DNA of 64,000 nucleotides from Marixanthomonas ophiurae (GTDB lineage: Bacteria > Bacteroidota > Bacteroidia > Flavobacteriales > Flavobacteriaceae), in NCBI RefSeq assembly GCF_003413745.1, contig NZ_QVID01000003.1, forward strand, positions 1 through 64,000, in the 5' to 3' direction. The position numbers were made by a program, and so were the translations under genes. This document shows, one piece after another, positions 1 to 19,581 of this stretch. The notes below the pieces were generated by a model that worked only from the letters and a program-made list of their open reading frames with translations, searched no databases and was not told the DNA's origin. Each line of letters starts with the position of its first letter. The stretch's first letter is position 1.

Positions 1-108
1 CTCGACTTAAATCTTAAGCCTTATTTTGTTAGACGCAGTGGACTTGAACCACCGTAATCATTACTCCTTTCGCCTGTTTAAGAACTTGCTTACCGTTGTA
101 AGCGGCTG
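1..108 (-). other. Leader region of a stable-RNA transcript leaving the left edge
   Basis: This is the transcribed side of the leftmost promoter of the array and reads leftward. In RNA sense it holds a boxA-like GUUCUUAAACA (plus-strand 75-85) and then a T-arm-like GTGG-TTCAAGT-CCAC (plus strand about 37-51) followed by TGCGTCT. No complete cloverleaf can be folded, because no matching 5' acceptor strand lies about 65 nt upstream. It is therefore either an rRNA/tRNA operon leader or a tRNA remnant. The gene it serves lies outside the window, so its identity is inferred only. Confidence 0.4.
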
Positions 109-140
109 CAAATATACAACCATTTATTTTACTCTACCAA
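109..140 (-). promoter_or_regulatory. Promoter P1 of tandem stable-RNA promoter array
   Basis: Read on the minus strand, TATATTTG (plus 109-116) is a -7 element of the Bacteroidota form TAnnTTTG. TTG (plus 138-140) is the -33 element, with a 21-nt spacer. The transcript would begin with GC-rich GCxGCCGCTTA, as at the other three copies. Confidence 0.7.
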
Positions 141-225
141 AACTTTTTTGAAGTTTTTTAAAACTTTTTTTTAAGAGCGTTTTGATGCTTTTCGATTCAA
201 TTTTTATTGCTTCGTTAAGCGGATG

Positions 226-255
226 CAAAAGTACAATACTTTTTAAACCCTGCAA
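226..255 (-). promoter_or_regulatory. Promoter P2 of tandem stable-RNA promoter array
   Basis: The minus-strand -7 is TACTTTTG (plus 226-233) and the -33 is TTG (plus 253-255), with a 19-nt spacer. The leader starts GCATCCGCTTA and ends in boxA-like ACGCTCTTAA (plus 171-180), just before the P1 promoter region. Confidence 0.75.
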
Positions 256-341
256 CACTTTTTAAAAATAATTTTTAGATTTTTTTAAGAGCGTATTTTG
301 CTGCTTTTTGATTCAATTTTCATTGTTTCTCTAAGCGGATG

Positions 342-371
342 CAAATGTACAACACTTTTTAAATCTGGCAA
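342..371 (-). promoter_or_regulatory. Promoter P3 of tandem stable-RNA promoter array
   Basis: The minus-strand -7 is TACATTTG (plus 342-349) and the -33 is TTG (plus 369-371), with a 19-nt spacer. The leader again begins GCATCCGCTTA and carries boxA-like ACGCTCTTAA (plus 285-294). The whole unit is a clear, slightly diverged duplicate of the P2 unit. Confidence 0.75.
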
Positions 372-454
372 CCTTTTTTAAAAGTTTATTTGAAATATTT
401 TAAAGATCGTTATTCGCTTTATAAAACGCCTTACGTTGTTTTTGTAAGCGGGTG

Positions 455-484
455 CAAAGATACATTGCTTTTCTACTCCTGCAA
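455..484 (-). promoter_or_regulatory. Promoter P4 of tandem stable-RNA promoter array
   Basis: The minus-strand -7 is TATCTTTG (plus 455-462) and the -33 is TTG (plus 482-484), with a 19-nt spacer. The leader begins GCACCCGCTTA and contains ACGATCTTTAA (plus 400-410), the most diverged boxA-like copy. This is the outermost promoter of the array. Confidence 0.7.
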
Positions 485-928: not shown

Positions 929-959
929 TTGTGAGACTTTTAAAACAGTAGTATCTTTG
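929..959 (+). promoter_or_regulatory. thrS promoter
   Basis: TTG (929-931), a 20-nt spacer and TATCTTTG (952-959) give a near-ideal Bacteroidota sigma-A promoter. Transcription would start about 965, leaving a leader of roughly 15 nt before the thrS ATG at 982. Confidence 0.7.
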
Positions 960-981
960 CTACTTATTAAATTACTCTACT

Positions 982-2928
982 ATGATACGCATTACCTTAC
1001 CGGATGGAAGTGTAAAAGAATTTGAAGCTGGCATTACTGCTATGGATGTAGCAAAAAGCATAAGCGAAGGATTGGCCAGAAATGTAATTTCGGCTTCCTT
1101 TAATAAAGAAACTCTAGAAACTAGTACGCCACTTACTGAAGATGGTAGTCTTGTTTTATATACGTGGCGAGATGATGAAGGAAAAAAAGCCTTTTGGCAT
1201 TCTTCTGCCCATATTCTTGCACAAGCATTGGAAGAATTATATCCTGGTGCTAAATTAACAATCGGTCCAGCTATCGATACTGGGTTTTATTATGACGTAG
1301 ATTTTGGCGAGCATACTGTTTCGGAAAAAGATCTACCTATCATCGAAAAGAAGATGTTAGAAATTGCCCGTGGAAAACATGAGTTTTCTATGCGGGAATC
1401 TAGTAAAGCTGATGCGCTAGATTACTATAAAAAACAACACAACGAATATAAGGTTGAATTAATTGAAAACCTTGAAGATGGCACCATCACTTTTTGTGAC
1501 CATGACACCTTTACTGATCTATGCCGTGGAGGCCATATACCCAATACTGGTATTGTGAAAGCCGTAAAGTTGATGAGTATTGCCGGTGCATATTGGCGCG
1601 GTGACGAAAATAACACGCAGTTAACGCGTATTTACGGTGTTACTTTCCCGAAGCAAAAAGAACTGAAGGAGTATCTTGCTTTATTAGAAGAGGCCAAAAA
1701 GAGAGACCATAGGAAACTTGGGAAAGAACTTGAATTGTTTACGTTTTCACAAAAAGTAGGTCAAGGTTTGCCATTATGGCTTCCTAAAGGAGCTGCTCTT
1801 AGAGAACGCCTAGAGAACTTCCTTAAAAAAGCTCAGAAAAAAGCGGGTTATGAAATGGTGGTTTCGCCACACATTGGACAGAAAGAGCTTTATGTAACTT
1901 CTGGTCATTACGCAAAATATGGAGAAGATAGTTTTCAACCTATAAAAACACCGAACGATGATGAGGAGTTTTTATTAAAACCGATGAACTGCCCACATCA
2001 CTGTGAGATATACAACAGCAAACCTTGGTCTTATAAAGATTTACCAAAGCGTTTTGCTGAGTTTGGAACAGTGTATCGCTATGAACAAAGCGGCGAATTA
2101 CACGGTTTAACTCGCGTACGTGGGTTTACACAAGATGATGCACATATATTTTGTACGCCCGATCAATTGGATGATGAATTTAAAAAGGTAATAGACCTTG
2201 TCTTATATGTTTTTGGCTCGCTAGGGTTTGAAAACTTTACAGCACAAGTATCGCTACGCGATCCTGAAAAACCAGAAAAATATATAGGTGCTCTTGAAAA
2301 TTGGGAGAAAGCTGAAAATGCAATCCTAAATGCTGCAAAAGAAAAAGGCTTAGATTATAAAGTGGAAACTGGAGAAGCTGCTTTTTACGGTCCTAAATTA
2401 GACTTTATGGTGAAAGATGCCTTAGGAAGAAGCTGGCAACTAGGTACTATACAGGTGGATTACAACTTACCAGAGCGCTTTGAATTAACCTATAAAGGTA
2501 GTGATAACGAGCTACACAGACCTGTTATGATTCACCGTGCACCATTTGGTAGTATGGAACGATTTATAGCTATTTTACTAGAGCATACAGGGGGTAACTT
2601 CCCTTTATGGCTTATGCCAGAACAAGTTGCTATATTATCATTGAGTGAAAAATATGAAAAATACGCTCAAAAAGTTTTAAATTCGCTTGAAAATAACGAA
2701 ATTCGCGCCCTTGTCGATAACCGAAGTGAAACCATTGGTAAGAAAATTCGGGAATCTGAGATGAACAAAATACCGTATATGCTCATTGTTGGTGAGCAGG
2801 AAGAAAAAGATGGTACAGTTTCTGTACGGAAACATAGCGACGGAGATATAGGAAATATGACCATCGAAGAATTTTCTGAATTAATTAACAAGGAAATTGA
2901 AAATAATATTGTAGATTTTAATGTTTAA
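982..2928 (+). CDS. thrS: Threonine--tRNA ligase
   Basis: Class II aminoacyl-tRNA synthetase that charges tRNA-Thr in the cytoplasm. All expected parts are visible in its 648 residues: an N-terminal TGS domain (about 1-61), the editing domain with HxxxH (H73, H77) and C181/H185, and the catalytic core with the zinc/active-site motif MNCPHH (C337). Motif 2 (YRYEQSG...) follows, then the C-terminal anticodon-binding domain (about 545-640). The length is normal for the family. It heads the classic thrS-infC-rpmI-rplT cluster and has its own well-formed promoter 20-50 nt upstream. The ATG fits the family N-terminus. Confidence 0.97.
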
Positions 2929-19550: not shown

Positions 19551-19581
19551 CAAATATAAGGTATTTACCACGTTTGCACAA
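19551..19581 (-). promoter_or_regulatory. tRNA-His promoter
   Basis: The minus-strand TATATTTG (plus 19551-19558) and TTG (plus 19579-19581) have a 20-nt spacer. The transcript start region reads GCACTCGCTTTTAAAGCG, very like the starts of the four promoters at 109-484. This suggests a shared stable-RNA promoter design. Confidence 0.75.

Follow-up and report, generated by a model that had tools for sequence, protein, structure and literature searches.

Tandem promoters in front of an rRNA operon

The left end of contig C3 in the six-contig genome of Marixanthomonas ophiurae raises a simple question: what do several closely spaced promoters on the minus strand drive when they point off the end of the contig, and what does the RNA that they would share contain? 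The stretch analysed here (the window) is C3:1-64000, and its left edge is the contig end. A search of the minus strand of its first 900 nt with the strict pattern TTG-N17..23-TAnnTTTG returned exactly four promoters (P1 to P4, spacers of 21, 19, 19, and 19 nt), with -7 boxes at 109, 226, 342, and 455 and steps of 117, 116, and 113 nt, just as the initial annotation had read them from the sequence. Of 5000 copies of the 600-nt segment generated with a first-order Markov model, 4819 contained no site, 175 contained one, 6 contained two, and none contained three or four. Since the whole 64-kb window holds 21 matches to the same pattern on both strands, an isolated match carries little weight, and it is the cluster that counts. 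A boxA-like site, also claimed earlier for each promoter unit, was present in all four. The features of the array are as follows.

455..484, minus strand: promoter P4, TTG at 484-482, 19-nt spacer, -7 box TATCTTTG at 462-455, discriminator CACCCGC
400..410, minus strand: boxA-like site ACGATCTTTAA of unit 4
342..371, minus strand: promoter P3, TTG at 371-369, 19-nt spacer, -7 box TACATTTG at 349-342
285..294, minus strand: boxA-like site ACGCTCTTAA of unit 3
226..255, minus strand: promoter P2, TTG at 255-253, 19-nt spacer, -7 box TACTTTTG at 233-226
171..180, minus strand: boxA-like site ACGCTCTTAA of unit 2
109..140, minus strand: promoter P1, TTG at 140-138, 21-nt spacer, -7 box TATATTTG at 116-109, start predicted at about 104-103
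88..103, minus strand: hairpin GCTTAC-AACG-GTAAGC, read from the sequence, at the 5′ terminus of the predicted P1 transcript
77..87, minus strand: boxA-like site AAGTTCTTAAA of unit 1, immediately 5′ of a tRNA-like element

Sigma-A promoters of Bacteroidota carry a TTG element, and all four sites have it about 19 to 21 nt 5′ of TAnnTTTG. Given that the sigma-A -7 box TAnnTTTG of Flavobacterium psychrophilum lies at -12 to -5 (PMC9723704, in excerpt), the GC-rich block CA(C/G/T)CCGCTTA found 3′ of every one of the four -7 boxes would be mostly discriminator, with the start site inside it. The initial annotation had correctly placed such a block (GCxnCCGCTTA) after each box, but its description as the beginning of the transcribed leader does not hold. 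TRF scored a 116-nt repeat with 85% matches over 1.9 copies, and units 2 and 3 are 87% alike. A separate small RNA from each promoter is not favoured, as the units run into one operon.

That operon lies past the window edge. Read on the minus strand, the left end of C3 is 100% identical to the start of contig C4 (5564 bp) over an overlap of 121 nt, and C4 carries 16S (272-1799), tRNA-Ile, tRNA-Ala, 23S, and 5S genes. A 16S gene had been predicted within about 300 nt to the left; it begins 151 nt beyond the edge, and the promoters stand directly 5′ of a 16S-23S-5S operon and point at it. The right end of contig C1 matches the same C4 stretch (93% over 192 nt). With these two upstream flanks, C4 resembles a collapsed rRNA operon, and the contig ends point to a minimum of two rrn copies in the genome. 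The other copy, on C1, has P1 and one further promoter 246 nt upstream, and the -7 box and discriminator of P1 also occur at C4:6-21 and C1:2254973-2254988. Because P1 and the tRNA-like element both lie within the 121-nt overlap with the collapsed contig, it is the assembly join that ties them to P2-P4. Two further features frame the leader.

C4:128-143, outside the window: main boxA, GTTCATTGATATATTG
982..2928, plus strand: thrS (threonine--tRNA ligase), the divergent neighbour, an ORF matching TIGR00418 with 731 bits

The sequence GTTCATTGAYATATTG, which we take to resemble boxA, stands before 16S (C4/L032, 128-143) and again before 23S (2359-2374), where it is 3′ of tRNA-Ala. The same spacer order, a tRNA and then boxA, was shown by many Flavobacteriaceae loci in a DNA-pattern scan. 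Overall, the anatomy of promoters, leader, and operon is close to certain.

The intergenic region toward thrS showed two additional features. A strong hairpin (CCCATTTCTTG-loop-CAAGAAATGGG, seen by eye at 706-737 on the plus strand) lies between the rrn promoters and thrS and is perhaps a terminator or a dispersed repeat. A promoter-like TATCTTTG occurs at 952-959 (plus strand) right before thrS, and a similar TATCTTTGCTGC site is found in the same-genus loci L067-L069.

Stable-RNA promoters in the genome and in the family

The motif TANNTTTGCANNCGCT has 12 matches in the 3.3-Mb genome, against none for the reversed pattern, and 11 of these stand 5′ of rRNA or tRNA genes. Six are rrn promoters, P1 being counted three times among them (C3, C1, and C4), and five precede tRNA-Val, Phe, Gly-Leu, Lys, and His. 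The initial annotation had singled out the tRNA-His promoter at 19551 as related; it is indeed present, and ARAGORN places the tRNA-His gene at 19523-19449 (minus strand). The twelfth match (C2:739683-739698, TATTTTTGCAATCGCT) had no RNA gene by ARAGORN or Rfam in the 3-kb locus L338, and possibly marks an RNA not yet described or arose by chance. Near variants of the motif are also found 5′ of tRNA-Glu and tRNA-Asn. With 11 of 12 sites before stable RNAs, a GC-rich discriminator is therefore common to rRNA and tRNA promoters, a feature that would fit growth control.

We compared these promoters with 53 16S-upstream stretches from 35 other genomes of the family, nearly all of different genera, which together with the two copies of this genome gave 55; L089 and L090 (too short) and L099 (masked) were dropped, leaving 52 copies from 35 genomes. 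Zero, one, two, three, and four promoters were found in 1, 11, 26, 13, and 1 copies, respectively, so that 40/52 have at least two and the window copy alone has four. Spacings ranged from 91 to 246 nt, 49 of 55 falling within 100-154 nt. Using the pattern [AC]GNTC[AT]T, picked after these sequences had been inspected, we found a boxA-like site behind 33 of the 38 distinct P1 units and 29 of the 46 distinct upstream units, where shuffles predicted 2.1 and 1.7, respectively. This comparison with other flavobacterial rRNA promoters, proposed earlier as a check, revealed repeated promoter-leader units, most with a boxA-like site, recurring in the family. By analogy, the boxA-like sites may serve as antitermination signals and the discriminators may provide growth-rate control.

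Tandem rRNA promoters and boxA are already known kinds of element. In the excerpts of the cited sources, two promoters are described for Mycobacterium tuberculosis rrnA and five for M. chelonae (PMC10218544), and P1 and P2 for rRNA operons of Escherichia coli (PMC5179076); serial promoters, in numbers that vary by operon and species, are common to these systems and the one studied here. In contrast, the promoters described here are of the Bacteroidota TTG/TAnnTTTG type, their discriminator is CACCCGCTT-like, and those 29 of 46 distinct upstream units are followed by a boxA-like site. The leader resembles other bacterial rrn boxA leaders in having boxA-like GTTCATTGAYATATTG 5′ of both 16S and 23S, but differs in repeating a boxA-like sequence once per promoter unit. 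The family-wide picture of Flavobacteriaceae rRNA promoters is one of units in tandem, mostly with a boxA-like site, and of a CACCCGCTT-like discriminator, a layout for which we found no description in the openly licensed literature.

A predicted tRNA-like RNA in the 16S leader

Between the last promoter, P1, and the 16S boxA sits a 50-nt element in which a T arm, GTGG-UUCAAGU-CCAC, appears without a surrounding tRNA. The initial annotation had passed over this element, as well as the main boxA outside the window.

27..76, minus strand: tRNA-like leader element without an anticodon arm, scoring 64 bits with model R1, which includes this sequence itself
75-71 with 35-31, minus strand: acceptor-like stem
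67-66, minus strand: GG
54-49 with 41-36, minus strand: T stem
48-42, minus strand: T loop UUCAAGU

The first elements of relatives were found with a T-loop pattern and by eye, before any model was built and with the acceptor helix outside the search criteria. Alignment A2, comprising eight of the ten elements found in this way, had 97.7% of its cells paired and double changes in 6/11 pairs (12 double-change cells), and none of 500 shuffles was as high on paired cells or on covariation. Model R1 was built from these sequences, and alignment A4 (17 sequences, A2 plus nine found by R1) gave 95.7% paired cells and double changes in 9/11 pairs (31 cells), comprising 4/5 acceptor pairs and 5/6 T-stem pairs, again unmatched in 500 shuffles, while slid registers of the same alignment reached only 33-49% pairing. 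A2 is the cleaner test, since R1, which selected the nine additions to A4, contains the structure. RNAalifold applied to A4 unaided returned the identical 11 pairs. Single-sequence folding gave both helices as the minimum-energy structure for 18 of 24 elements but not for the other six (L087, L178, L189, L233, L266, and L098). Every one of the 24 carried GG between its two helices as well as a T loop of the UUCRANY type, the T loop being part of the search for many of them.

The combined acceptor/T helix measures 11 bp, compared with 12 bp in tRNA, and CCA directly after the discriminator base of the acceptor-like stem was seen by eye in 0/24 elements; one from G285, outside this set, ends in ACCA. 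A second form, found in Christiangramia, Gillisia, Salinimicrobium, Aquimarina, and others, includes a short D stem whose loop contains the GG, and its D-stem pairs (CCC/GGG, GCC/GGC, ACC/GGT, and ATC/GAT) covary as judged by eye alone. The MAFFT alignment A1 mis-registered these D-arm elements and was excluded from all counts. A descriptor written later matched the 64-kb window once, at the element itself, and the 53 leaders five times (0.015 expected), missing 2 of 7 element-bearing copies. The element thus has the fold of a t-element, that is, a tRNA-like acceptor/T-arm within a precursor RNA, and the compensatory changes argue very strongly that it is a structured tRNA-like RNA.

Known RNA classes did not account for it. 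Searches of ten loci against Rfam 15 (E up to 10) yielded no family matching the element, RF00005 included, and ARAGORN called no tRNA at the element in the window, L001, L032, L033, L146, or L147. A tRNA gene was rejected, as a complete cloverleaf with an anticodon arm is absent, and so was a real tRNA gene cut by the window edge, as C4 continues without an anticodon arm and ARAGORN finds no tRNA there. The tRNA-like domain of tmRNA has an acceptor stem, a T arm, a D loop without a real stem, and no anticodon arm. The element shares these features, but it lacks a tag-coding domain, is 50 nt long, and lies in an rRNA leader. At this length, and with no tmRNA called at the element by ARAGORN or Rfam in the scanned sequences, tmRNA was rejected as well. 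A conserved G3:U70 alanine identity was likewise discarded: only 2 of 17 sequences have G-U as their third acceptor pair, and the others have A-U or G-C.

Distribution and history of the element

A search of 397 family genomes with R1 (E up to 0.05) gave 27 matches in 22 genomes, of which 22 in 18 genomes lay in rRNA leaders and five did not (G118, G251, G045, G082, and G285:C1). Model R3, trained on the D-stem form, gave 41 matches in 21 genomes from a draw of 397 family genomes; 36 were in leaders and five (L296, L298, L299, L301, and L302) were not. L293 and L309 were counted as leaders despite failing the script, because both have the leader boxA GTTCATTGATTTATTG and L293 also has a promoter. 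Where the contig ended short of 16S, as it did for several leaders, promoter plus boxA sufficed for acceptance. Overall, the leader element was found in 27/397 family genomes and 19/237 genera. These are minimum figures, since a 16S match of any kind was seen in only 73 of 149 family genomes. In a sample of the phylum (392 genomes, family members included), three genomes had matches; the two leader matches were both in Flavobacteriaceae, and L283 (G504, another family, model R2) was rejected for want of leader context.

A genome-wide DNA pattern matched at least 119 stretches, mostly true spacer tRNAs followed by boxA. Setting aside 65/80 and 33/39 of these left 21, and five of the 21 (L167, L172, L203, L230, and L231) were rejected for having neither an rRNA promoter nor 16S, so that at least 16 leader elements remain. 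The position within the leader was similar across genera. At model-found loci, the T loop begins 64-91 nt past the first base of the nearest TAnnTTTG, and boxA follows after another 28-100 nt where the contig extends that far; at loci found by the DNA pattern, the separation from the promoter-like box is shortest in Aquimarina (L189, 46) and longest in Gillisia (L266, 104).

Within genomes, occupancy varied. Three complete genomes have the element at every 16S copy (G315, 5/5; G249, 3/3; G115, 2/2), G097 has it at 2/2 (its 16S matches being incomplete), and G085 has it in 3/4 leaders, the fourth being masked (201 N). It is present in one of two operons of G069, in none of the one examined in G151, a member of the window's genus, and in 7 of the 52 rrn copies of the promoter comparison. 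As it is missing from most copies and from one G069 operon, 16S maturation as such does not depend on the element. In the single-contig genome G069, the two loci (L081/L082) have DNA in common from boxA to 16S and differ upstream, one leader only having the element. An upstream stretch of G085 (L098, 330-462, minus strand) also gave a sub-threshold match to Flavo-1 RNA (37.9 bits; cut-off, 42).

On a 16S tree of 28 rows (6 of 34 planned rows were left out as missing, short, or masked), the trait needs six changes, at least five of them forced by well-supported branches, and it is more clustered than with shuffled labels, which scored as low in 5-7 of 500 trials. We infer from this pattern that the element may be old and repeatedly lost, or may have moved between operons.

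In relatives, thrS marks one rrn operon (thrS was found in L067-L070 at 93-98% identity and confirmed in the thrS-side loci of G153, G049, and G151). In these three genomes the thrS-side operon has three promoters and a leader without the element over its readable length, which extends as far as 16S in G151, beyond boxA in G153, and up to boxA in G049, while G153, G049, and G152, the last also of the same genus, have the element in the other operon. In G153, G152, G049, and G151, the thrS-side unit that corresponds to P4 matches it at 89-94%. In three of these four relatives, the window aligns with the thrS-side region only to about 215, just past the P2 box, and the G152 alignment ends earlier, near a contig end. 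Because the alignment stops there, P4-P2 correspond to the three promoters of the relatives. Over the overlap, window P1 and the element are identical to those of the other operon, and conversion from that operon appears to have added them behind P4-P2. The alignment to relatives does not call for a recent duplication of a promoter unit in this genome.

A possible processing mark at the head of pre-rRNA

A tandem-promoter rRNA leader bearing a tRNA-like processing mark is, by a modest preference, the best explanation of the locus as a whole. The four sigma-A promoters with their GC-rich discriminators would feed the 16S-tRNA-Ile-tRNA-Ala-23S-5S operon, presumably with transcription from all four, and since every promoter has its own boxA-like site, each primary transcript would carry one in roughly its first 60 nt. 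All four transcripts would then run through one 50-nt RNA folded like the upper half of a tRNA, in which the acceptor-like stem would stack on the T arm and the GG-bearing D segment could dock on the T loop. This acceptor/T-arm helix may be bound by RNase P and/or RNase Z, which would cut the leader there. Cleavage would remove the variable RNA next to the promoters and give pre-16S a uniform end just 5′ of boxA and 16S, with a counterpart in the spacer, where a tRNA would act likewise before the second boxA and 23S.

That the element is a processing mark cut by tRNA enzymes we propose tentatively. An acceptor/T helix, a tRNA T loop, and a D-loop GG are features read by RNase P and RNase Z. 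The proposal draws on the presence of an 11-bp helix, a T loop, and a D-loop GG in the element, on the tRNA-boxA-23S order of the spacer, and on a parallel in Haloferax volcanii, where tRNase Z generates the 5S 5′ end by cutting a tRNA-like t-element inside the rRNA operon (PMC4326828, in excerpt). The likeness lies in a tRNA-like structure within an rRNA operon; the Haloferax element is archaeal and directly precedes mature 5S, whereas the one described here is bacterial, lies in the 16S leader about 200 nt upstream of 16S, and has no anticodon arm, and its cleavage is a prediction. Counting against a processing role are the general lack of an encoded CCA, a helix one pair shorter than that of tRNA, and the absence of the element from most leaders.

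Other roles were weighed against the same evidence. The element could be a lineage-specific, boxB-like part of the antitermination machinery that aids Nus factor loading without cleavage. This would suit its place in many leaders, where a boxA-like site precedes it and the conserved boxA comes after it, and the response of the bacterial rrn antitermination complex to boxB, boxA, and boxC (PMC10250234, in excerpt). A hairpin would suffice for such a part, yet the tRNA T loop, the GG, and the acceptor helix on the T stem are all kept, and most leaders of the family have boxA without the element, which makes this role rather unlikely.

The tRNA elbow and acceptor features are recognised by RNase P, RNase Z, the CCA-adding enzyme, TruB, EF-Tu, and SmpB. 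The element, which keeps them, could instead act as a decoy or sensor for one of these tRNA-handling proteins, and operons with and without it do coexist in single genomes (G069, and G153 and G049 in the window's genus). However, the sequence indicates no partner, and we know of no partner or regulatory effect for the element; a decoy or sensor is improbable, as is its corollary that rRNA output or maturation would track tRNA-processing capacity. Least probable by far is a decaying 3′ part of a tRNA gene left in the leader by recombination or mobile-element integration: a truncated tRNA would leave a T arm and an acceptor 3′ strand, and the distribution is patchy (six changes on the 16S tree, at least five forced), but this reading is disfavoured by the compensatory double changes in 4/5 acceptor and 5/6 T-stem pairs at 95.7% pairing, and a similar position relative to promoter and boxA across genera and the genomes with the element in all copies also speak against it.

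Bacterial rRNA leaders are usually described as boxB-boxA-boxC plus a processing stem, and our search of the openly licensed literature, which is weak evidence, returned no account of a tRNA-like element in them. The processing-mark reading, if correct, would define a new cis-acting RNA family, which we put forward with reserve: an anticodon-less tRNA mimic at the head of pre-rRNA, cut or bound by tRNA-maturation enzymes, that would couple tRNA and rRNA maturation, form a bacterial counterpart of archaeal t-elements, and be switchable between operons of one genome by gene conversion. The occurrence of a conserved top half of a tRNA in the rRNA leaders of at least 19 genera of Flavobacteriaceae suggests that tRNA-maturation enzymes may act on bacterial pre-rRNA.
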